From Tsuneonella sp. CC-YZS046 (GTDB taxonomy: Bacteria > Pseudomonadota > Alphaproteobacteria > Sphingomonadales > Sphingomonadaceae): a stretch of DNA of 64,000 bases. Position 1 is the stretch's first letter. Each line of letters begins with the position of its first letter. This document shows, in pieces, positions 27,944 to 39,364 of this stretch. The stretch lies in assembly GCF_035581365.1 (NCBI RefSeq), contig NZ_CP141590.1, forward strand, positions 1,116,001-1,180,000. The letters are read 5' to 3'. The position numbers were made by a program, and so were the translations under genes. A model generated the notes under the pieces. The model was given only the letters and a program-made list of their open reading frames with translations, was not told where the DNA came from and made no database searches.

Positions 27944-29452
27944 ATGGCAAGCATCGCAGTGCAAGAACGTTCCGATACCGGTACGCAAGCCGAGGAATTC
28001 GATGTTCTTATCGTTGGAGCGGGGATTTCCGGTATAGGCAGCGCCTATCACCTGCTTACCCAGTGCCCGGACAAACGCTTCGTGGTGCTGGAGGCGCAGG
28101 AGGGGTTTGGCGGAACCTGGCGGACCCATAAATATCCGGGCACGCGCTCCGACTCGGATCTTTACACCTTCGGTTATCGCTTCAAGCCCTGGGTCGGTCC
28201 GCCGATCGCGACGAAGGCGGAAATTTGCAAGTATCTCGGCGAAGTCATCGACGAGAACGGCCTGGATCGCTTCATCCGCTATGGCTCGAAGATAACGGGA
28301 TGCTCTTGGTCTAGCGAGGACCGCAAATGGACTGTCGAGGTCGGCGGTCAAGACGGGCGGCCAGGCAAAACCTATCGCTGCAATTTCCTCTGGATGTGCC
28401 AGGGCTATTACGATCACGACAACCCGTTTCTGCCCGATTGGCAGGGGTTGGACGATTTCAGGGGAACCCTGGTCCACGCCCAAAAGTGGGATGAAAACCT
28501 GGATTATGCAGGCAAACAGGTGGTGGTGATCGGGTCGGGCGCCACCGCCGCGACAGTCATTCCGGCGATGGCGGGGAAGGCCGGGCATGTGACCATGCTG
28601 CAGCGCTCCCCCACCTATTTCTTCTGCTATCCCAACCGCAGCGATCTTGCCGACCAACTGCGCCTGATCGGGGTGGACGAGCCGACAATCCACAGAGTGG
28701 TGCGGTTGCAGTATCTTCACGACCTGAAGACTCTCGACCGCCGCTCCCAGGAAGAGCCGGAAGTGGTCTTCGAGGAACTGAAGACCTTGATAAGGCAATA
28801 TGCGGGCGACGACTTCAAGTTCGACCCGGATTTCACTCCTCGCTACCGCGTATGGCAGCAACGCCTCGCCTTCGTGCCCGATGGCGACATGTTCCGCGCG
28901 ATCGGCGAGGGCAAGGTCTCGGCGGTGACGGATGAGATCGATCGCTTCGTGCCGGATGGCATCCGTTTGAAATCCGGCAAGGAATTGAAGGCGGATATCG
29001 TGGTCGCGGCGACCGGATTCCGGCTGTCAGTGATGGGCAACATCCCGTTCAAGGTGGACGGGAAAGAGATCGATTGGTCCGAGACGGCCACCTATCGCGG
29101 GATGATGTTCACCGGAGTGCCGAACCTGCTCTGGGTCTTCGGCTATTTCCGCGCGGCATGGACGCTGCGGGTGGACCTGATGGGCGATTTCGTCTGCCGC
29201 CTGCTCGAGCACATGGACAGCAAGGGTGCGAGCCAGGTGAAGGTGGTTGCCCCCTCCGGTGGAGAGAACGACCCGCTCCTGCCCTGGATAGAGTCGGAAA
29301 ACTTCAATCCCGGCTATCTCATGCGCGATGTGGACAAGCTGCCCAAGCGGCTCGGCGAGCGTCCGGAGTGGCGGCATACCCAGAACTACTGGAAGGAAAG
29401 CGAAGATATTCCCGCTGTCGATCTGGACGGGCCGGAATTCGTGTATCGCTGA
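27944..29452 (+). CDS. type I Baeyer-Villiger monooxygenase (flavin-containing)
   Basis: Protein of 502 residues that should insert oxygen next to a ketone using FAD and NADPH. The FAD Rossmann motif is GAGISG (25-30). The extended fingerprint GGTWRTHKYPGTRSD is at 56-70, the classical FxGxxxHxxxW(P/D) fingerprint FRGTLVHAQKWD at 172-183, and the NADPH motif GSGATA at 197-202. AGAGGA precedes ATG 27944. The next gene, an AraC regulator, is convergent. Substrate unknown: cyclic or long-chain ketones are typical for the family. Confidence 0.92.
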   Translation: MASIAVQERSDTGTQAEEFDVLIVGAGISGIGSAYHLLTQCPDKRFVVLEAQEGFGGTWRTHKYPGTRSDSDLYTFGYRFKPWVGPPIATKAEICKYLGEVIDENGLDRFIRYGSKITGCSWSSEDRKWTVEVGGQDGRPGKTYRCNFLWMCQGYYDHDNPFLPDWQGLDDFRGTLVHAQKWDENLDYAGKQVVVIGSGATAATVIPAMAGKAGHVTMLQRSPTYFFCYPNRSDLADQLRLIGVDEPTIHRVVRLQYLHDLKTLDRRSQEEPEVVFEELKTLIRQYAGDDFKFDPDFTPRYRVWQQRLAFVPDGDMFRAIGEGKVSAVTDEIDRFVPDGIRLKSGKELKADIVVAATGFRLSVMGNIPFKVDGKEIDWSETATYRGMMFTGVPNLLWVFGYFRAAWTLRVDLMGDFVCRLLEHMDSKGASQVKVVAPSGGENDPLLPWIESENFNPGYLMRDVDKLPKRLGERPEWRHTQNYWKESEDIPAVDLDGPEFVYR

Positions 29453-29472
29453 ACCGGGCGGGCCGGGCTGGC

Positions 29473-30516
29473 CTAATTCGCCTTGCCCGAATTGATCAGG
29501 GTTCTGCGAAATTCGAGCGAACCCATGCCCGACCAGCGCTTGAAAGCCCTGGAAAAGCTCGAAGGTTCGGCGAAGCCCACCGCCGCAGCGATGGCTTCAA
29601 CGGACATCGCCTTGTCGGCGAGCAATTCGCAGGCGCGCTGATAGCGGGCTTCGTCGATCAGGGTCGAGAACTTGGTTCCTTCCTCGGCAAGGCGCCGATG
29701 CAGCGTCCGCTCCGAGAGGGCCAGCCTTTCCGCCGCCTCGCTGGCCGAGGGAAATCTGTCGAACGCAATGCCCAGCATGGCCGTCAGGCGCTGGGATATC
29801 CGGGCATTGGATCGCGCAGCCTTGAGCAGGCCTTCGCATTTCGAGCTGTAAAGCAGCATCAGCTCCATATCGGCCAGCGGCAGCGAGGCATTCGCCGTGC
29901 CGGGCTTGAAGCGCCACTGAGTCTGTTCGGCATCGAATTGGACACGGCAGGGAAACAGGCGGCTGTCGATTTCCCATCCGGGAGGCGGCGGGGCCGCGAC
30001 GCAGACTTCTTCCAGCGGAAGCTGGCCGCCCGTCAGGTCCGCGATCAGGGTCCGTATCGCGCCGAGATCCCGATATTGCGAGAAATGGCGCAGTTGCAGC
30101 GGCACGCCGTTATCTTCGCCGATCAGCGCGCAAGCATTGTTGGGGCCTCTCTCCAGGCGATAGCTGATAAGAGAATAGGTAAGCTCCTGATACCGGCAGG
30201 CCACGTTCAGGCCTTCGCCCAACGTTCGCGCCGTCATCATCGCCAAGCCGAAAGTTCCATATTTCATGGAACGATAGCGCAGCCCCATCCGCAGCCATTG
30301 ATCGGCGCTTTGCCCTGTAACATCCGCGAAGGCCCGCTGCAGCTGAAGTTCTTCCTCGGCCAGCAAGTCGCATGTGCCGCTTTCGAAAGAGAGGGGCTTC
30401 AGCCGGTGATAATTGCAGAAGGAATCCCAACCGATGCGGAACTGATGGACCAGTTCATCGCGCATTATCCGGGCACTCAGATCGGGCAGCGCCGCCAGCA
30501 GCGTATCTGACCTCAT
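29473..30516 (-). CDS. AraC family transcriptional regulator
   Basis: Regulator of 347 residues with an N-terminal Arabinose_bd-like sensing domain (about 20-200) and a C-terminal AraC double helix-turn-helix (about 240-340: SEAAERLALSERTLHRRLAEEG and SVEAIAAAVGFAEPSSFSRA, FKRWSG). It lies between the monooxygenase and the divergent PQQ dehydrogenase operon and is the obvious candidate regulator of both. The ligand is unknown, probably a pathway intermediate. Confidence 0.93.
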   Translation of the reverse strand: MRSDTLLAALPDLSARIMRDELVHQFRIGWDSFCNYHRLKPLSFESGTCDLLAEEELQLQRAFADVTGQSADQWLRMGLRYRSMKYGTFGLAMMTARTLGEGLNVACRYQELTYSLISYRLERGPNNACALIGEDNGVPLQLRHFSQYRDLGAIRTLIADLTGGQLPLEEVCVAAPPPPGWEIDSRLFPCRVQFDAEQTQWRFKPGTANASLPLADMELMLLYSSKCEGLLKAARSNARISQRLTAMLGIAFDRFPSASEAAERLALSERTLHRRLAEEGTKFSTLIDEARYQRACELLADKAMSVEAIAAAVGFAEPSSFSRAFKRWSGMGSLEFRRTLINSGKAN

Positions 30517-30554
30517 CCTCTCTACCTTTCGTTTTTTCGAACGCTAGGCAGACA

Positions 30555-30621
30555 GGCAATGTGCGTCAAGCAAGCTGGCAATTTGCGTCAAGAAGTTGGC
30601 GACAGCGAACATGGCATTTGC
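30555..30621. promoter_or_regulatory. phased direct repeats in the AraC/PQQ-dehydrogenase intergenic region
   Basis: GGCAATGTGCGTCAAG (30555-30570) and GGCAATTTGCGTCAAG (30577-30592) match in 15 of 16 bases and are 22 bases apart, two helical turns. Shorter copies, TTGGCGAC (from 30596) and TGGCATTTGC (from 30612), continue toward the dehydrogenase gene. This is the expected form of an AraC-family binding region. Confidence 0.6.
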
Positions 30622-30661
30622 TTAGTGTCCGTCTACTCGGAATGGGACACTGGAGGGGATA

Positions 30662-32797
30662 GTGACAACAATCGTCAGGCCGAAATGGCTGTTCTCGTTG
30701 ATTGCCAGTCTGGCGCTCGCTGGCTGCGGCTCGGCTGATCGCACGACCACGGCCTCAGGCTCGCCCAATTGGGAGCGACTGCTCGCGGCAGCCGAAAATC
30801 CTAACGACTGGGTCACTTATGGCGGCACTTTCGATGAGCAGCGGTTCAGCGGGCTGACGCAAATCTCCGATGCCAATGTCGGCCAGCTGGGCCTCGCCTG
30901 GTCTTACGAGTTCGACACCAACCGGGCGCAGGAGACGACTCCCCTCGCATATGATGGCGTGATCTATGCCACCACCGCCTGGTCCAAGGTGTTTGCGCTG
31001 GATGCAACGACCGGGAAGCTGATCTGGAGCTACGATCCCGAAGTTCCGGGCGAGGCGGGAGCCAAGGGATGCTGCGATGTCGGCAATCGGGGCGCGGCGA
31101 TCTATGACGGCAAGCTCTATTTCGGCACTTTCGACGGACGGCTGATCGCGCTCGACATCAAGACCGGAAAGCCGGTCTGGACAGTGGTTACGGTCGATCA
31201 ATCCAAGCCTTACACCATCACGGGCGCGCCGCGTATCGTGAAGGGCAAGGTGGTTATCGGCAATGGCGGAGCGGAACTGGGCGTTCGCGGCTATGTCAGC
31301 GCTTACGATGCGGAAACCGGCAAGCAGGCCTGGCGCTTCTACACCGTGCCCGGCAATCCGGCGGACGGGCGGGACAATGCCGCGTCCGACAACGTGCTGG
31401 CGAGCAAGGCTTCCTCGACATGGTTCGGCAAGTTCTGGGAAGCGGGTGGGGGCGGCACGGTCTGGGATTCGATCGTCTACGATCCCGAACTCGATCAGCT
31501 TTACATCGGCGTCGGAAACGGCAGCCCATGGAATCACAAGATCCGCAGCCAGGGCAAGGGCGACAATCTGTTCCTGTCCTCCATCGTGGCGCTTGATCCG
31601 GATACCGGCAAATATCGCTGGCATTATCAGGCCTCGCCCGGGGAAAGCTGGGACTACACCAATACCCAGAGCATCATTCTCGCCACGCTCGACATCGAAG
31701 GAAAGCCGCGCAAGGTGCTGATGCAGGCGCCCAAGAACGGTTTCTTCTTCGTCATCGACAGGAACAACGGCAAGCTGCTCTCCGCAAAGAATTATGTCGA
31801 GGTGAACTGGGCCAGCGGCTATGATCTGAATACGGGCCGCCCAATCGAAAACCCCGAAGCGCGCTACGATCAAGGCTCTTTCGTGGCCATACCGGGCGCG
31901 TTGGGCGGGCATAACTGGCAGCCGATGGCTTTCAGCCCGAGAACCGGGCTGGCCTATATTCCGGGGCAGGACGCGGTGTTCGGCTATGACAATCCGGAGC
32001 AATATAAATATCGCCCCGGCCGCTGGAACACCGGCATCGGCACCATCGGAGCGGCCGCCCCGGACGATGCCAATCAGTTCCAGGCCATCCGCAAGATGCT
32101 GAGAGGCCGCCTGATCGCATGGGACCCGATCGGGCAGAAGGCGGCATGGACCTTCGACTATGACGAGCCATGGAACGGCGGGGTTCTCTCCACAGCCGGA
32201 AATCTCGTGTTCCAGGGTGACACGAAGGGCAATTTCCGCGCATTCGCGGCCGATAACGGCAAGGTCCTGTGGACGGCCAAGCTGGGCATGCCCATCATGG
32301 CCGCGCCGACCAGCTTTGCGGTCGATGGTGTGCAATATGTCGCGGTCGCGGCAGGTTATGGCGGGGCTTATGCCCTGACCAGCGCCTTCAACGACAATCC
32401 TTCCCCGCAGCAGAATGGCCGCCTCTATGTTTTCAAGGTCGGCGGCAAAGCCGCGATCCCGGAGCTTGCGAAGCTGGCTTTCGGCCCACCCAATCCTGCA
32501 ACCGACAAGTTCACGCCGCAGCAGATTGCGCGGGGCAAGGAACAGTTCGCCACCGATTGCTGGATGTGCCACGGCCCCGGCAGCGTTTCGAGCGGTGTCG
32601 CCCCTGATCTGCGCCGATCCGGCGCGCTCGGCGATGCGCAGATGTGGAAGCAGATCGTGATTGACGGCGCCCTCAAGGATAGCGGCATGATCGGCTTTGC
32701 GAAATATATGACCGCCGCCGATGCCGAAGGCATCCGCGCCTATATCTCGGACCGCGCCGCTGCATTGAAGCAATCGGAAAAGGGAAGCGGCAAATGA
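30662..32797 (+). CDS. PQQ-dependent quinohemoprotein alcohol dehydrogenase, lipoprotein
   Basis: Protein of 711 residues. It has a signal peptide ending in a lipobox (LALAGC, Cys 22), an eight-bladed beta-propeller with the vicinal disulfide C137-C138, Ca/PQQ residues in GGAELGVRG and GNGSPWN, and the catalytic Asp in GESWDYTN (D330). A C-terminal cytochrome c domain carries CWMCHG (633-638) with a likely Met ligand in SGMIGF. GTG start after GGAGGGG. It oxidises alcohols at the periplasmic side and needs PQQ made or taken up elsewhere. Four-base overlap with the next gene. Confidence 0.93.
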   Translation: MTTIVRPKWLFSLIASLALAGCGSADRTTTASGSPNWERLLAAAENPNDWVTYGGTFDEQRFSGLTQISDANVGQLGLAWSYEFDTNRAQETTPLAYDGVIYATTAWSKVFALDATTGKLIWSYDPEVPGEAGAKGCCDVGNRGAAIYDGKLYFGTFDGRLIALDIKTGKPVWTVVTVDQSKPYTITGAPRIVKGKVVIGNGGAELGVRGYVSAYDAETGKQAWRFYTVPGNPADGRDNAASDNVLASKASSTWFGKFWEAGGGGTVWDSIVYDPELDQLYIGVGNGSPWNHKIRSQGKGDNLFLSSIVALDPDTGKYRWHYQASPGESWDYTNTQSIILATLDIEGKPRKVLMQAPKNGFFFVIDRNNGKLLSAKNYVEVNWASGYDLNTGRPIENPEARYDQGSFVAIPGALGGHNWQPMAFSPRTGLAYIPGQDAVFGYDNPEQYKYRPGRWNTGIGTIGAAAPDDANQFQAIRKMLRGRLIAWDPIGQKAAWTFDYDEPWNGGVLSTAGNLVFQGDTKGNFRAFAADNGKVLWTAKLGMPIMAAPTSFAVDGVQYVAVAAGYGGAYALTSAFNDNPSPQQNGRLYVFKVGGKAAIPELAKLAFGPPNPATDKFTPQQIARGKEQFATDCWMCHGPGSVSSGVAPDLRRSGALGDAQMWKQIVIDGALKDSGMIGFAKYMTAADAEGIRAYISDRAAALKQSEKGSGK

Positions 32798-33747
32798 GCA
32801 AGGCTGTAGTCCTGCCGGAAACGGCGGCGATCCTGGAAGCGTTGGCCGCGCAGGAAGGGCCGGCGCTCTCGGAAATGACGGCACCCGAAATGCGGAGCGT
32901 CTACGGGCAATTGGGCGATCTGTTCGACCTGCCGCCCGTGCCCGGAATAACCACGGCCGACTTTACAGGCGCGAGCATTCCCATGCGGGTCTATCATCCC
33001 GGCGAGCCGAAAGCGGCGCCCGTCATCGTGTATATGCATGGCGGGGGCTGGGTGATTGGCGATCTGGAGAGCCATCATTCGCTCTGCACCCAGATTGCCG
33101 GGCAGACCGGACTGCGAGTGGTGGCGGTCGATTACCGGCTCGCACCGGAAGCCAGATTCCCCGCCGCGCATGAGGATTGCATCGCGGCGGTCGGGCATGT
33201 GCTTTCCAGCCCTGCCGAGCTTGGCGCGCCAGTAACGGGGGTGGCTGTGGCCGGCGACAGTGCGGGCGCCAATCTCGCCTTTGCCGTTTCGAGCCATTAC
33301 GGCGAGGGGGTGCTCGCCCAATTGCTGATCTACCCGGTGGGGGACTGTGCCGGGACCGATACCGCATCCTACAGGGATTTCGGCGAAGGCTATCTTCTCG
33401 ACAAGCCTTTGATGGATCGCTTCATTGACGAATATCTTCCATCGGTAGAGGCCCGCGCGGATCTGCGCGTATCGCCTCTGCGGGGCGAGTTGGCGGGCAG
33501 ATTCCCGCCCACCATGATACTCGCCGCCGGGCTTGATCCGCTGCGCGATGAAGGACGGCTGCTGGTGGGCAGAATTGCCCAGACGGGTAGTGAAGTGCAT
33601 TTCCTCGAAGCGGAAGGCCTCATTCACGGGATGGCCACCATGCGCAAGGTCTTGCCTACGGGCGACCGGATCTTGCAGCAGACGTTCGGCCAGTTTGCAG
33701 AACTTATCAAAGATCGAAGTGATAAAGCACAGGAGCGAGAGGCATGA
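32794..33747 (+). CDS. alpha/beta hydrolase, hormone-sensitive-lipase (bHSL) family esterase
   Basis: Esterase-like protein of 317 residues. The oxyanion motif is HGGGW (82-86), the nucleophile elbow GDSAG (Ser 156), and the remaining triad is probably Asp 248 (GLDPL) and His 278 (GLIHGM). It overlaps its neighbours by four bases on both sides, so it is tightly coupled to the alcohol and aldehyde dehydrogenases. In this context it would cleave the ester or lactone made by the monooxygenase. Confidence 0.92.
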   Translation: MSKAVVLPETAAILEALAAQEGPALSEMTAPEMRSVYGQLGDLFDLPPVPGITTADFTGASIPMRVYHPGEPKAAPVIVYMHGGGWVIGDLESHHSLCTQIAGQTGLRVVAVDYRLAPEARFPAAHEDCIAAVGHVLSSPAELGAPVTGVAVAGDSAGANLAFAVSSHYGEGVLAQLLIYPVGDCAGTDTASYRDFGEGYLLDKPLMDRFIDEYLPSVEARADLRVSPLRGELAGRFPPTMILAAGLDPLRDEGRLLVGRIAQTGSEVHFLEAEGLIHGMATMRKVLPTGDRILQQTFGQFAELIKDRSDKAQEREA

Positions 33748-35171
33748 GAGATTATCTCGATTTCTATATCGATGGCGCATGGGTCTCGCCCGCGCAGCCG
33801 AAGACGCTGGATGTCATCGACCCGTCCACCGAGCAGCCGGTAGGGAGGATCAGCCTGGGCAGCGCGGCGGATGTCGATCGCGCGGTCGCGGCGGCGCAGC
33901 GGGCCTTTTCATCCTTCGGCCGAAGCTCGAAGGCTGAACGGCTCGATCTGCTCGACGCGATCATCGCGGCTTACAAGGCGCGGGAGAAGGATCTAGCCGA
34001 TGCCGTGCGGGAGGAGATGGGCGCGCCATCGCTGCTGGCCAGCGGCGCGCATGTCCCGTTCGCGCTGATGCATTTCGAAACGGCGCGCAAATTGCTGCCC
34101 GATTTCAGTTACGACGTCGATCACGGCAGCACGCTGATTACGAAGGAACCGATCGGGGTGGTCGGGATGATTACCCCATGGAACTGGCCGCTCAATCAGA
34201 TCGCCTGCAAGGTCGCGCCTGCCCTCGCGGTAGGATGCACGATGATCCTCAAGCCTTCGGAAGTGGCGCCTTTCAGCGGCCAGATCTTCGCGGAGGTGAT
34301 GGATGCCGCTGGCGTTCCGGCCGGCGTGTTCAACATGGTGCAGGGCGATGGTCCTACCGTGGGGGCCGCCATTTCCGCCCATCCCGGGGTGGACATGGTT
34401 TCCTTCACGGGATCGACCCGTGGTGGCGTGGAAGTGGCGCGCAATGCGGCGAGCACGGTCAAGCGGGTCCATCAGGAGCTGGGCGGCAAGTCGGCCAATA
34501 TCATCCTGGATGACGCCGATTTCGAATCCGCCGTCCATCAGGGCGTGGCAGCAATGATGGTGAACAGCGGCCAGAGCTGCAATGCACCCTCGCGCATGCT
34601 GGTCCCGGCCGCGCGAATGCAGGAAGCGAGCGAGATCGCAAAGCGGACCATCGCTCAGCAGAAAGTCGGCGCGCCGACCGAGGAGGTCAATCTTGGCCCG
34701 GTCGTGTCCGATGTGCAGTGGAACCGCATCCAGTCCCTAATCGAGAAGGGCATAGAGGAAGGGGCCGATCTGGTCGCGGGCGGCCCCGGAAAGCCGGAAG
34801 GCCTGAATCAGGGCTATTATGTCCGGCCCACGGTGTTCGGCGGCGTGAACAATCAGATGACGATCGCCCGCGAGGAGATCTTCGGGCCGGTGCTCGTCAT
34901 CATCGGATACGACAATGAAGATCAGGCGATCGAGATCGCCAATGACACGCCCTATGGCCTCGCCGGATATGTCCAGTCAGGGGACATCGGCCACGCTCGT
35001 GATGTGGCTTCGAGGATACGGGCCGGGCAGGTCGCGCTGAACTATGCGCCGCTCGATCTCGCGGCTCCGTTCGGCGGCTACAAGCAATCCGGCAACGGGC
35101 GCGAGTGGGGTGAACATGCCTTCCATGAATTCATGGAAGCGAAGGCGGTGCTGGGTTACGCGCCCGCCTGA
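33744..35171 (+). CDS. NAD(P)-dependent aldehyde dehydrogenase
   Basis: Protein of 475 residues of the ALDH superfamily. The nucleotide-binding motif FTGSTRGG is at 221-228, the general base Glu 245 in ELGGKSANI, and the catalytic Cys 279 in NSGQSCNAPSR. It ends the PQQ dehydrogenase-esterase-ALDH operon and would oxidise the aldehyde released by the PQQ enzyme to an acid. Confidence 0.95.
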   Translation: MRDYLDFYIDGAWVSPAQPKTLDVIDPSTEQPVGRISLGSAADVDRAVAAAQRAFSSFGRSSKAERLDLLDAIIAAYKAREKDLADAVREEMGAPSLLASGAHVPFALMHFETARKLLPDFSYDVDHGSTLITKEPIGVVGMITPWNWPLNQIACKVAPALAVGCTMILKPSEVAPFSGQIFAEVMDAAGVPAGVFNMVQGDGPTVGAAISAHPGVDMVSFTGSTRGGVEVARNAASTVKRVHQELGGKSANIILDDADFESAVHQGVAAMMVNSGQSCNAPSRMLVPAARMQEASEIAKRTIAQQKVGAPTEEVNLGPVVSDVQWNRIQSLIEKGIEEGADLVAGGPGKPEGLNQGYYVRPTVFGGVNNQMTIAREEIFGPVLVIIGYDNEDQAIEIANDTPYGLAGYVQSGDIGHARDVASRIRAGQVALNYAPLDLAAPFGGYKQSGNGREWGEHAFHEFMEAKAVLGYAPA

Positions 35172-35295
35172 CCATAGGTCTGATCCTGGGGACCCGATCC
35201 CGGATGAAACCGAAAAGGGGCGGTCGCATGTGCCGCCCCTTTCCTTTGCATCTAGCTTGCCGACCACGCGTCACCGCATCGCCGGGAGCCGCCAC

Positions 35296-36222
35296 TCAGC
35301 CATATTGGGTGACGTAGTCCTTCACAAAATCGAAGTAGTTCTTGTTCCAGTTGAATTCGCACACGCCGACCCCGGCCACTCCGTCGAATTCCAGCGTCGC
35401 GCAGCCGGTGTTGATGATGGTCTTCGGATCGTGCGACGACTGCAGGATGCCGAACATCTTGTAATCGATGAATGACTTGCGCCCTTCGGTGTCGGTGACC
35501 GTCACCTGGAAGGTCTTCTGCAGCATGTCATCACCGAAGGTGAAATCGTAATCGACATCGGCGATGTGGCGCATCGCGCCGTCCTTGAAGAGGAAACCGC
35601 GCAGCTCGGTCTTGCCGAAGGCCTGCATCTCGAAAAAATGCATGGAAGAATCGCCGGTGGTGGCGTGAATCCATTTGTAGTGCTGATTGATCCCCCAGAT
35701 GCGCGGACCCCAGCTGTGGTCGCGCACCAGAAAGCCCGTGTGGGGATATTTCTGGCCGTCGATCTCGATATCGGCCACGACCCGCCCATGCTGCTCGGTG
35801 CGGTTGTCGCCGAAATAAGGCGGGTTGCCCTTGGGGTGGGTGCTGAAGGGATAAGGCGGGTGCGTGCCCTCGAAGCTGGCCTTCACCTTGATGCGTTCGC
35901 CGTTCCAGTCGAGATTCACCTTCTTGAAGGGTTCGGCCACTTCCATGTGCAGCGGGCCAAGCCGCCAGTTGTCGAAGTTCATGTCCTCGCTGATCGTGCC
36001 GTCATGCGCTTCGACCACCTGTTCGGGAAAATTTGGCCCGAAGAAGCAAGCCATGGCCCGCGCTTCGCCAGTGCCCAGCATGCTGGGATAGATAAATCCG
36101 GCCATCTGCTGTTCCGGCATCAGGAAGATATGCGCCAGGGATTCCCTGCCGTTCGGCGCCAGCTTGTGGCGATATGCGTTCTCGACCGGAAAGTCGGTAA
36201 ACTGCTTCGTAACTTCAGGCAT
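35296..36222 (-). CDS. AttH/CrtC-like beta-barrel protein of unknown function (DUF7064-like)
   Basis: Protein of 308 residues, no signal peptide, mostly beta strands, with the conserved-looking GFLVRDHSWGPRIWGI at about residues 159-174. Two lipocalin-like halves are likely, as in the AttH/hydroxyneurosporene synthase fold and the DUF7064 group seen in lipid and steroid catabolic regions. AAGG stands eight bases before the ATG. It is on the same strand as the SDR gene (90 bases apart), so both may form one transcript. Function not known. Confidence 0.75.
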   Translation of the reverse strand: MPEVTKQFTDFPVENAYRHKLAPNGRESLAHIFLMPEQQMAGFIYPSMLGTGEARAMACFFGPNFPEQVVEAHDGTISEDMNFDNWRLGPLHMEVAEPFKKVNLDWNGERIKVKASFEGTHPPYPFSTHPKGNPPYFGDNRTEQHGRVVADIEIDGQKYPHTGFLVRDHSWGPRIWGINQHYKWIHATTGDSSMHFFEMQAFGKTELRGFLFKDGAMRHIADVDYDFTFGDDMLQKTFQVTVTDTEGRKSFIDYKMFGILQSSHDPKTIINTGCATLEFDGVAGVGVCEFNWNKNYFDFVKDYVTQYG

Positions 36223-36312
36223 CTTGCCTTGTTCTCCTGGTTGCCGCGGAAGGCGGGCGCCATGAATGCCGGGTTTCGGCGTGGCGCCCCCCGATCCGCG
36301 GGATAGCGGTGG

Positions 36313-37161
36313 TTATTTCCCGCCGTTCTTGAGTTCGTTGAAATCCGTGCCTGCCTGGATCATGCGTTCCGCAAACGGCGCCATCATCACCGCGCTGCAG
36401 CCGCCGTCGACCGGCAGCACCACGCCATTGACATAGGCCGAGGCATCGCTGGCCAGGAACAGCACCGCTTCGGCGATATCCTTCGGATAGGCCACGCGGC
36501 CGGACGGGATCAACGTGCCGAGGCGCTTGTCGAGGAAGGACTCGAACTCGGTGGCCTGATCTTCCGACACGCCAAACGCGCGAGCCATGATCGGCGTCAT
36601 CGTGATGCCCGGGCAAATGGCGTTGGAACGGATGCCATGCGCGCCCAGTTCGATGACGGCCTGGCGCACCACGCCGAGAACGGCATGCTTGGTGATGGTA
36701 TAGGCGGCGGAGGACCAGCCCCCCTGGATCGCGGCCGTGCTGGCGGTGGAGATAATGGTGCCGCCCGTGCCCTGCTTGATGAATTGCCGTGCGGCGTGCT
36801 TGTGGCCCGAAACCACGGAATTGACGAGGAGAGCCGAAGTATCGTTCATCCCGCCGAGATCAATATCCACCAGGGAGTCGCGATTGCCGGGGGCGCCCGC
36901 ATTGTTGAATATGATGTCCAGCTTACCGAAACGGTCAACCGCGGTCTGCACCAGACGCTCGATCGCGGAATCGTCCGTCACGTCGGTATGGACATAAACG
37001 ACCTTGTCGGGGAAGCGCGCCTCAAGCGCCTTGCCCAGATCGTCCTGAATATCGCCGACGGCCACTTTGGCGCCTTCTTCGACGAAGAGTTCCACCGTAC
37101 CGAGGCCTATGCCGCTGACGCCGCCGGTAACAACTGCGACCTTGCCTGCTAACCTTCCCAT
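36313..37161 (-). CDS. short-chain dehydrogenase/reductase (SDR)
   Basis: Classical SDR of 282 residues from ATG 37161; an upstream in-frame GTG at 37167 would add two residues. It has TGGVSGIG for the cofactor, NNAGAPG, the serine in ISTAST and the catalytic YTITK. D in VGDIQDD at the end of strand 2 favours NAD over NADP. In this cluster it could oxidise a secondary alcohol to the ketone used by the monooxygenase. Confidence 0.92.
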   Translation of the reverse strand: MGRLAGKVAVVTGGVSGIGLGTVELFVEEGAKVAVGDIQDDLGKALEARFPDKVVYVHTDVTDDSAIERLVQTAVDRFGKLDIIFNNAGAPGNRDSLVDIDLGGMNDTSALLVNSVVSGHKHAARQFIKQGTGGTIISTASTAAIQGGWSSAAYTITKHAVLGVVRQAVIELGAHGIRSNAICPGITMTPIMARAFGVSEDQATEFESFLDKRLGTLIPSGRVAYPKDIAEAVLFLASDASAYVNGVVLPVDGGCSAVMMAPFAERMIQAGTDFNELKNGGK

Positions 37162-37378
37162 AAACACCTGTCTCCCAATTTCCGTCCGGCATCCGGCCGG
37201 ATGAACGACCCAAGCTTTAGCCGACTGGGCGATGATTCCTAGTCACCGAACCGAATTTTATCCGGCTCGGCGAATGCCGGTCGATCCGCTTTCAACCCAG
37301 CAGATACGGAAACACCCAGGCCGATCATCACTCCATTGACAGGGCAAGCCAGGATGATCACAGAGCTATCGGTGATAA

Positions 37379-37424: not shown

Positions 37425-38006
37425 ATGAATGTTTTCTCCGCCATTGTCTTGTCTGGCTCGCTGGCAGCCGTGGCGGGAGTCACGCTGCTCCGGGTTGCCT
37501 GGGGGCGTCCGCTGCGTTCCGCGCCATTGCTGTTCGCAGCCTGGGCCTTGGTGGCGGCCGGTCTTGTCCTGGGGGCTTGGGCAAACGGCGCTTGGGGTCT
37601 TTCGATTGTCAGCCTTTCGGCAATGGGCGCCGCCTTCGCCATGCTTGCGCCGGCAATCGTCACATCGAAACCCGGCAAGGACAGGCCTTCTGAAAGGCGG
37701 GCCAATATATTGCCGGATGGCGCCGGGTCCCTGTTCATCGGCCGCCGTATATTCACCTTTCTCCTTGCCGTTCCGCTGGCCATGGCCGCAGCCCTGCTGA
37801 TCGCGCTTGCGGGAAGGGCAGTGGCAGGCTGGTCGGGCTGGCACGAAGCCAATGCAAATGTGCTGGCCATCTTCCTGCTCCCTGTGTGCTGGGCGATATT
37901 GGCATTTGCATTGCTGATGACATCTCGCAGGCGGTTTCAGGCGATATTGCTGATCGTTCCTGCAACGATTGGCGCGGGCATCCTCTGGCTGGGAAGCGTG
38001 GCATGA
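37425..38006 (+). CDS. membrane protein of unknown function linked to PepSY
   Basis: Protein of 193 residues with five or six hydrophobic segments and almost no polar loops except one at about 80-105. No family is recognised. Its stop overlaps the PepSY gene start (ATGA), so the two are coupled and probably act together in the inner membrane, perhaps in siderophore or heme iron handling as in other PepSY operons. Confidence 0.78.
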   Translation: MNVFSAIVLSGSLAAVAGVTLLRVAWGRPLRSAPLLFAAWALVAAGLVLGAWANGAWGLSIVSLSAMGAAFAMLAPAIVTSKPGKDRPSERRANILPDGAGSLFIGRRIFTFLLAVPLAMAAALLIALAGRAVAGWSGWHEANANVLAIFLLPVCWAILAFALLMTSRRRFQAILLIVPATIGAGILWLGSVA

Positions 38007-39364
38007 ACCTCGCCATCGGAAAGCCCACCGTGCGCAAGGCGCTTTCGGCCCATGCGGCGATCGGCCTGCTCGCAGGCGCATTCCTCTATCTGGTCTGCCT
38101 GACCGGCACATTGATTGTATTCTATGAAGAATGGCAGCGGGTCGAACAGCCATCCGCTCCGGAAATGGCGGCGGTGGCCCCGGATGTAGTTCAGAAAGCC
38201 GCCACAAACGTGCTCGATGCCGAGAAAGGCAAGCCGCGAACAACCCACCTGTTCGTGCATTTGCCGGTGAAGGCGCTGCCTCGCCTCACCGTTACCACTG
38301 ACAGCCAGGCTTTCCATATCGACCGGAACGGGGCTATCGCAGGCCCGGAGGAAAACAGCTGGTCGGAATTCCTGCTGAGTCTCCATTACGAGCTGAACCT
38401 GCCCGCCATCGTCGGGATGACTCTCGTCGGCATCCTTGGCGTGATGATCGTCGCGCTTTCCATCTCCGGCGTGATCGCGCACCCGCGGATCTTTCGGGAT
38501 GCGTTCCGGTTGAGAGCCCGCGGCATAGGCGGGGCGGGGCTTGCCGATTGGCATAACCGGCTGGGAGTGTGGACCTTGCCGTTCGCGCTTGCCATCGCGC
38601 TTACCGGAGCGATGATCGGGCTGGCGAATATAGCTGGCTTCGGGCTTGCCACGGCTTTCTACAATGGGGATATCGAGGCAGCCTATGCGCCGATCTTCGG
38701 CGCGGAGGCGGAGCCGGATTCCACGCCGGCCGGCATCCCCGATACTGCCGCGGCGCTGCGCCATATGGTCAGCGATTTTCCGGGCGTGGAGCCTTATTAC
38801 GTCATCATTCACGACCCCTTGACCGCAGGTCAGCATGTTCAGGTCATCGCTCACCATCCGCGCCGCCTGATTTTCGGCGAGAGTTACTTTTTTGATGCCG
38901 CAGGCCGGTTCCAGGGCAAGGCTGGCCTGTCCGATGGCGAAACTGGCCAGCAATTTGCCGCGTCGGTCTACAAGCTCCATTTCGGAAATTATGCAGGGCT
39001 TCCGGTGAAGATCGCATATTTCCTGCTCGGGCTGGCGCTCACAACCGTCGTCGCGACAGGAACCTCGATCTGGCTCGGCAAACGGCAGCGGCGCGGGCTG
39101 GACAATTTCCGCCTCCGCAATGCCTGGCACGGGGTCGTCTGGGGTATTCCGCTGGTGCTGGCGGCGACCTTCCTGGCAAGGCTGATATTGGGCAATGGCG
39201 CTCCGCTCATTACGATCTTCTGGGGCCTGGCGGCACTGATCCTGGGGCTGTCAGTCGCTTTGCCGGCGTATCTGCGGCTAAGGCCGATGCTGATCGTTGC
39301 GCTGACAGTGGCATCTCTGCTGAGCATTGCGACGCCGCTCATCTTGCATCTGCTGCGCGCCTGA
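38003..39364 (+). CDS. PepSY-associated TM helix domain protein
   Basis: Inner-membrane protein of 453 residues with the PepSY_TM layout. The first helix is AAIGLLAGAFLYLVCLTGTL, followed by FYEEWQR, a periplasmic domain, then SLHYELNLP with further helices and a late DWHNRLGVWTLPF motif. Members reduce or process ferric siderophores beside TonB receptors, or act in peptidase control. ATG 38003 overlaps the preceding stop by four bases. No TonB receptor is in the window. Confidence 0.88.
   Translation: MNLAIGKPTVRKALSAHAAIGLLAGAFLYLVCLTGTLIVFYEEWQRVEQPSAPEMAAVAPDVVQKAATNVLDAEKGKPRTTHLFVHLPVKALPRLTVTTDSQAFHIDRNGAIAGPEENSWSEFLLSLHYELNLPAIVGMTLVGILGVMIVALSISGVIAHPRIFRDAFRLRARGIGGAGLADWHNRLGVWTLPFALAIALTGAMIGLANIAGFGLATAFYNGDIEAAYAPIFGAEAEPDSTPAGIPDTAAALRHMVSDFPGVEPYYVIIHDPLTAGQHVQVIAHHPRRLIFGESYFFDAAGRFQGKAGLSDGETGQQFAASVYKLHFGNYAGLPVKIAYFLLGLALTTVVATGTSIWLGKRQRRGLDNFRLRNAWHGVVWGIPLVLAATFLARLILGNGAPLITIFWGLAALILGLSVALPAYLRLRPMLIVALTVASLLSIATPLILHLLRA

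Follow-up and report, generated by a model that had tools for sequence, protein, structure and literature searches.

We analysed a 64,000-nucleotide stretch of the Tsuneonella sp. CC-YZS046 genome (hereafter the window; G000:C1:1116001-1180000 in a single-contig genome of 3.35 Mb) that encodes a Baeyer–Villiger monooxygenase (BVMO) and a quinohaemoprotein alcohol dehydrogenase (QH-ADH) dependent on pyrroloquinoline quinone (PQQ). Together with genes for an esterase, an aldehyde dehydrogenase (ALDH) and an AraC-type regulator, these appear to form a functional unit that is smaller than the gene list drawn up in a first-pass annotation of this DNA. We hold with moderate confidence that the unit is a module for sub-terminal ketone degradation in which the primary-alcohol step takes place in the periplasm on PQQ taken up from outside, an arrangement that would tie a route of carbon degradation to a vitamin-like cofactor apparently not made by the cell. 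The five genes are as follows.

27944..29452, + strand: type I BVMO-like flavoprotein, 502 amino acids (PF00743 over cut-off, both fingerprints)
29473..30516, - strand: AraC/XylS-type regulator, divergent from the QH-ADH operon (PF12625 and HTH_18)
30662..32797, + strand: type II QH-ADH with PQQ and haem c (TIGR03075, PF01011, Cytochrome_CBB3)
32794..33747, + strand: HSL-family esterase (PF07859)
33744..35171, + strand: NAD(P)-type ALDH (PF00171)

These genes, and the two minus-strand genes described further below, have open reading frames at the positions given here, and the identities first assigned (BVMO, esterase, QH-ADH, ALDH, AraC regulator and a short-chain dehydrogenase/reductase, SDR) agree with their Pfam and NCBIfam matches. 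The QH-ADH gene starts with GTG, and overlaps of 4 nt join it to the esterase gene and the esterase gene to that for ALDH. The genes and their order, first described as one cluster, are real; the interval is not one operon, since by orientation its genes, which lie on both strands, fall into four or more transcription units. Nowhere in the window is there a consensus sigma-70 promoter (TTGACA-N15-19-TATAAT).

The BVMO carries the two fingerprints ascribed to it in exact form (GGTWRTHKYPGTRSD at residue 56 and FRGTLVHAQKWD at residue 172) along with two Rossmann motifs of the GxGxx[GA] type (GAGISG and GSGATA), all of these being defined in the way that we take to be standard. On these features of its sequence the 502 amino acid protein is a type I BVMO, with predicted ketone-to-ester activity. 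In length and N-terminal motif, rather than by sequence comparison, it presumably resembles the EthA/MymA/AlmA subgroup. Elsewhere in the genome the wider family is well represented, PF00743 (FMO/BVMO) being matched at 11 places in all at E ≤ 0.001.

The QH-ADH scores 657 bits against TIGR03075 (cut-off 480) and its best match among PDB sequences is the type II quinohaemoprotein alcohol dehydrogenase 1kv9 (residues 44–698, E 2.4e-213). The motifs that we take to serve the PQQ site and the haem are intact, namely the vicinal CC, SWDYT, QAPKNG, HNW, CWMCH (CxxCH) and the distal GM, and they are kept in nine relatives with the sole exception of an E to Q change in the QETTP motif at locus L134. 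The enzyme can accordingly be classed, by sequence, as type II, with a PQQ propeller and a C-terminal cytochrome c containing CxxCH and a distal Met, and the first-pass description of a PQQ enzyme with its own cytochrome c domain (PF01011 and Cytochrome_CBB3) is borne out. Whilst its PQQ and haem motifs align with those of 1kv9, the window enzyme adds an N-terminal lipobox, a setting in a ketone cluster and a host without PQQ synthesis genes. The lipobox (LALAGC, read by eye) fits the earlier view of the enzyme as a lipoprotein for the window protein itself, but none was seen by eye in four of the nine relatives compared (L042, L043, L045 and L137). The QH-ADH is probably periplasmic and thus outside the inner membrane. 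No signal peptide was seen by eye in the esterase, whose best NCBIfam match, LipP1, reaches 264 bits and lies under the cut-off of 350.

Comparison of neighbourhoods by tblastn located BVMO, QH-ADH and esterase genes together at six other complete or nearly complete loci (L134, from genome G088 of the same genus, L041, L042, L043, L045 and L137, of which L042 and L043 are near-identical). The AraC gene is present at all six, and that for ALDH at five. Relatives of the window AraC protein (50–61% identity) are found at these six loci and at L047, and relatives of the ALDH (73–83% identity) at L134, L041, L042, L043, L137, L047 and L151. Gene order varies between the loci: at L041, for example, the BVMO, QH-ADH, esterase and ALDH genes are co-oriented, with QH-ADH directly 3' of BVMO and AraC past ALDH. 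Partial copies lie at contig ends (L047/L011, L136 and L135). The last of these (L135:10231-12405, G088:C255) is a second BVMO/QH-ADH pair of the same-genus genome, besides L134, and ends at the contig end.

Because several of these loci had been retrieved by their QH-ADH, a BVMO-based search of 119 family genomes was added. A QH-ADH gene adjoins all five non-self BVMO relatives of 71–77% identity and none of the 14 examined neighbourhoods of the 19 relatives at 58–66%. The BVMOs linked to a QH-ADH group in a single clade, supported at 100/100, in a tree of 48 rows (35 different; limits of 380 amino acids and 38% identity, known duplicates dropped). In the QH-ADH tree (72 rows, 480 amino acids, at least 52% identity, plus L155), the linked enzymes fall in a clade of 10 (SH-aLRT 99) that also contains those of L044 and L151. 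The set of BVMO, esterase, alcohol dehydrogenase and ALDH with a quinohaemoprotein step, as originally proposed, is therefore kept as a block, to judge from the five of five versus none of 14 BVMO neighbourhoods. The BVMO relatives at 58–66% identity were considered as members of the same pathway and ruled out, there being no QH-ADH in the 14 neighbourhoods; their neighbours look, by eye and without a family search, like ThiC, DUF885-type and carotenoid genes.

Two further kinds of gene recur near the related clusters. An AMP-binding ligase gene is found near five of the six (type c6 at L134, L041 and L045; type c17 at L042 and L043) and a TonB receptor gene near five (type c16 at L134 and L045; type c11 at L042, L043 and L137). 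Pfam confirmed seven of these ligase and TonB proteins; the L043 members were assigned through similarity alone.

The 145 bp gap between the divergent AraC and QH-ADH genes contains two overlapping features.

30548..30591, + strand: 22-bp tandem direct repeat, probable regulator half-sites
30576..30614, + strand: conserved footprint TGGC-N6-CGTCAA-NAAN-TTGGC-N9-CATGG, probable AraC operator (columns invariant in six loci)

Direct repeats of ~21–22 bp fit an AraC/XylS-type protein. The repeat-derived motif GGCAATNTGCGTCAA occurs in these two copies and nowhere else in the window in exact form. The footprint consists of the invariant columns of aligned AraC/QH-ADH gaps from six loci, which count as five lineages given the near-identity of L042 and L043. 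Its core, CGTCAANAANTTGGC, is found in 13 of 181 loci (overlapping copies of the same DNA being counted), always near this AraC gene; at L047 it lies just upstream of AraC, which there sits past ALDH. At L135 and L136 the core is absent upstream of both BVMO and QH-ADH. The footprint is probably the operator bound by the adjacent AraC protein, and its conservation makes regulation directly testable.

The footprint and the five-of-five linkage (as against none of the 14 neighbourhoods examined at 58–66% identity) both argue against the idea that these are loosely associated mobile catabolic modules, with the QH-ADH a general alcohol scavenger independent of the BVMO. That idea, which we regard as improbable, draws on the differing gene orders and on loci where the block is incomplete: the QH-ADH gene stands alone at L044, and is accompanied by ALDH, without BVMO and esterase, at L151 and (by annotation) at L155, a Sphingopyxis plasmid.

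Under the module reading, the BVMO would convert a ketone to an ester by oxygen insertion; the ketone is most likely aliphatic and may be a 2-ketone. A cytoplasmic esterase would split the ester into a primary alcohol and an acid, the latter being acetate in the case of a 2-ketone. The QH-ADH would then oxidise the alcohol in the periplasm, passing electrons via its built-in haem c on towards the respiratory chain, and ALDH would convert the aldehyde to an acid that could enter beta-oxidation after CoA activation. The AraC protein would turn on the QH-ADH–esterase–ALDH operon through the direct-repeat footprint, and the QH-ADH would be loaded with PQQ that the cell imports and does not make. 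The substrate (for which aliphatic 2-ketones are a first guess), the order of reactions, the cell compartments, the transfer of the alcohol through the membrane, binding by AraC and PQQ uptake are all points that we infer. The QH-ADH is set at the alcohol-to-aldehyde step because QH-ADH and ALDH persist together without BVMO and esterase at L151 and L155.

That same pairing speaks against a different order of events, in which the QH-ADH acts first, converting an external secondary alcohol to a ketone in the periplasm, and the ketone diffuses in to meet the BVMO and the esterase; an ALDH is useless for a ketone product and would instead have to serve the primary alcohol that another dehydrogenase makes later. 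A periplasmic enzyme does most naturally meet an external substrate, and L045 has BVMO, QH-ADH and esterase without an adjacent ALDH match. We nevertheless consider this order unlikely, if a little less so than the scavenger idea.

The first-pass annotation had assigned the genes to a cyclic ketone route of the chn/cdd type, by which the BVMO would form a lactone, the esterase would open it and QH-ADH and ALDH would oxidise the resulting omega-hydroxy acid. Enzyme classes and order do match such a route, and HSL-type hydrolases are able to open lactones. However, the BVMO aligns with solved BVMOs (the closest of 532–573 amino acids), cyclohexanone monooxygenases among them, mainly over its first ~230 residues, which takes away from the assignment; an omega-hydroxy acid anion would, we infer, need to be exported from cytoplasm to periplasm; and the SDR meant to start the route is not conserved. 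Given the AMP-binding ligases close to all but one of the six related clusters, an aliphatic acid fits at least as well. We therefore give the cyclic route a low probability, about level with that of the scavenger idea.

Several observations weigh against the module reading itself. With a cytoplasmic esterase acting before a periplasmic dehydrogenase, the alcohol must move outward. The ALDH match is missing at L045, and no BVMO lies near the QH-ADH genes of L044 and L151, although these enzymes sit inside the linked clade, so that the pairing was either lost or never gained there. Conversely, in G114 (L146:6702-9696) an unlinked-group BVMO of 61% identity adjoins an ALDH gene of 63% identity without a QH-ADH. 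Among the eight linked BVMOs examined, the window protein being one of them, four have a relaxed form of the second fingerprint, which ends in WN (L134), WR (L041) or WH (L136) or starts with YKG (L045). As to regulation, L041, where AraC lies past ALDH, has no copy of the footprint core, and upstream of the window BVMO the half-site motif finds 4-mismatch matches only, which lends no support to co-regulation of that gene. Finally, the window has no TonB receptor of the kinds tested, and no CoA ligase was seen in its cluster.

The source of PQQ is central to the proposed module. No PqqC match was found in the Tsuneonella genome, in which the best PqqE hit reaches 55.5 bits against a curated cut-off of 381 and the best PqqB hit 26.6 bits against 245, the PqqB search being without a positive control. 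Across 37 genome handles chosen for clusters or close QH-ADHs, PqqC was present in Peristeroidobacter only, which has PqqE over the cut-off too and served as the positive control for both proteins. To judge from identical contig coordinates, the handles L040, L047 and L048 come from genomes already counted as G088, G056 and G070; the PqqC set thus comprises 34 distinct genomes, and the PqqE set of 20 handles comprises 17. In a broader sample of 397 Sphingomonadales genomes of at least 90% completeness, 236 encode a PQQ alcohol dehydrogenase over the cut-off and three (G302, G397 and G433) encode PqqC over the cut-off; all three are among the 236, leaving 233 of these without it. Twelve further genomes of the 397 have PqqC-like matches below the cut-off. 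These figures suggest that the Sphingomonadales are mostly PQQ non-producers.

A homologue of E. coli PqqU, the receptor on which PQQ scavenging is based elsewhere, was found in none of the 397 genomes at E ≤ 1e-40, in a search without a positive control that scored two candidates per genome in the 20 genomes listed. Distant PqqU-like receptors do occur in cluster-bearing genomes (eight genomes searched: 92 bits over residues 42–671 in G120, 67 and 50 bits in G095 and 56 bits in G000), and the absence of PqqU is therefore not clean-cut. The published signature of PqqU combines an aromatic residue at position 99 with Arg at both 304 and 365. When the best receptors of G000, G095, G120, G124 and G121 (55–112 bits by phmmer) were inspected, four of the five had Y or F at position 99 and none had the complete signature, in pairwise and multiple alignments whose low identity makes this less than decisive. 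With no PqqC match and no PqqE or PqqB over the cut-off, the periplasmic step probably runs on scavenged PQQ, which may enter Sphingomonadales by diffusion through porins, by a divergent PqqU or by another receptor.

A 2025 survey (PMC12124388) describes PqqU as largely absent from Alphaproteobacteria, which it infers to be mainly PQQ producers. Our case resembles the PqqU-based scavenging of that survey in having a quinoprotein without PQQ synthesis, and differs in that the Sphingomonadales examined here mostly lack PqqC and yielded no PqqU match at E ≤ 1e-40. A published case is in agreement: Sphingopyxis granuli TFA has a PQQ-dependent polyvinyl alcohol (PVA) dehydrogenase without PQQ synthesis genes (PMC7250832). 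No growth of this strain on PVA was detected, even in the company of a PQQ producer. An unused pathway is therefore also possible.

TonB receptors are abundant in sphingomonads. Those beside the related clusters were considered as PqqU and the identification is unsupported: their PDB matches are siderophore, colicin and haem receptors, none named PqqU, and at E ≤ 1e-10 a PqqU query retrieved, against the cluster receptors, itself and one L043 receptor (54.9 bits), with no c11 or c16 member. The c11 lineage, whose members score 551 bits or more against that of L042, adjoins QH-ADH or ALDH genes at eight loci, a raw count to be set against that abundance.

L042:13570-16155, c11 receptor
L043:13570-16155, c11 receptor
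L137:1842-4427, c11 receptor
L046:6303-8900, c11 receptor
L049:6203-8905, c11 receptor
L050:6203-8905, c11 receptor
L064:6332-8905, c11 receptor
L155:4863-7829, c11 receptor

These receptors are candidates for the import of PQQ, of the substrate or of something else. A wider proposal, which we offer tentatively and think may well not hold, is that Sphingomonadales run a broad set of periplasmic quinoproteins, this ketone route included, on PQQ made by others and brought in by an importer other than PqqU. If so, the c11 and c16 lineages beside QH-ADH genes become importer candidates, a community cofactor gates ketone degradation, and the view of Alphaproteobacteria as mainly PQQ producers needs splitting by order.

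Parts of the block have counterparts elsewhere. In the virS-mymA region of Mycobacterium tuberculosis, the gene for an AraC-type regulator neighbours genes for a BVMO, an HSL esterase and dehydrogenases. No PQQ enzyme is known to us in that region, nor a QH-ADH in the secondary-alcohol pathway of Pseudomonas fluorescens DSM 50106. MymA has been termed a BVMO (PMC13234193). The P. fluorescens pathway, which converts C10–12 secondary to primary alcohols, is BVMO-based like the window cluster (cited in PMC12753306). In the sad cluster, the BVMO SadD and the esterases SadA and SadB convert 2-ketones to a primary alcohol and acetate (PMC12753306; PMC10045523). The window cluster resembles this sad type (NyZ410) in bringing a BVMO and an esterase together but has a single esterase, assigns the alcohol step to a QH-ADH, includes the ALDH and, to judge from the six related loci, has no conserved secondary-alcohol dehydrogenase as a counterpart of SadC. 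Thalassolituus oleivorans growing on n-C28 upregulates a BVMO, an esterase and an alcohol dehydrogenase (PMC6304351), a long-alkane response with the same ketone-to-acid logic as the route proposed here, although its genes (TOL_0709, TOL_0906 and TOL_2772) are scattered, unlike those of the window; the word "quinoprotein" is absent from the text of that paper. Among the open-access papers searched, those on PQQ dependence in sphingomonads and on clusters pairing a BVMO with a quinoprotein included, no account of the present cluster was found.

What sets the window route apart from known sub-terminal routes is probably that its alcohol step is periplasmic and PQQ-dependent. If this is true, sphingomonads living in soil and water rely on PQQ-producing neighbours to break down ketones or alkanes, the pathway may escape growth tests in pure culture, and Alphaproteobacteria hold a route of PQQ uptake other than PqqU, yet to be found.

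Two genes that the first-pass annotation had counted in the cluster probably lie outside the core unit.

35296..36222, - strand: DUF7064/DUF7065 protein (PF23212/PF23213)
36313..37167, - strand: SDR (adh_short, PF13561)

The SDR had been given the first step of the route, and the DUF7064-like protein had been listed as a member. Both were rejected as core parts: at L134, L041, L042, L043, L045 and L137 there is no SDR orthologue (best match 35% identity) and no DUF7064 match. The comparison across Sphingomonadales that had been proposed at the outset recovered BVMO, QH-ADH, esterase and AraC at six loci and ALDH at five, and left these two out. They are possibly co-transcribed with each other. 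DUF7064 relatives at E ≤ 1e-40 occur in five of 119 family genomes, the Tsuneonella genome, with four such proteins, included. The window SDR finds no match in the flanks (up to ~1.5 kb, and less at contig ends) of the other 14 DUF7064 loci retrieved.

An AlphaFold2 model of the DUF7064 protein built from 15 aligned relatives (pLDDT 92.7) matches the 25-phosphosteroid lyase 9fzn with a Z score of 25.9 (rmsd 3.0 over 271 residues), AttH NE1406 (2ich) with 24.7, and kievitone hydratase and several [4+2] cyclases with 22–23; the next matches fall to 8.7. As modelled, the protein shares the overall fold of AttH NE1406 and 25-phosphosteroid lyase, and its identity to the lyase, AttH and kievitone hydratase (Z 22–26) is 8–17%. 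An RDHSWG motif is invariant among the 15 DUF7064 sequences. The lyase is a putative enzyme removing phosphate from a 25-phosphosteroid by elimination (PMC11061730). A fair guess is that the DUF7064 protein, which is not in the conserved block, may be a lyase or hydratase acting on an isoprenoid or steroid-like alcohol, apart from the ketone route, and the fold match offers a first chemical hypothesis for this unnamed family.

Beyond the SDR, positions 37425-39364 (+) encode a small protein without a Pfam match and, overlapping it, a PepSY-TM protein. Just upstream of the BVMO gene lies a flavin reductase gene (PF01613; 26949-27449, +), which a type I BVMO would presumably not need. Together with the adjacent ribB-like gene it bounds the catabolic stretch on one side, with rodA-, mrdA- and mreCB-like genes on the other; the flavin reductase is named from its Pfam match and the rest from reading of the sequence by eye.

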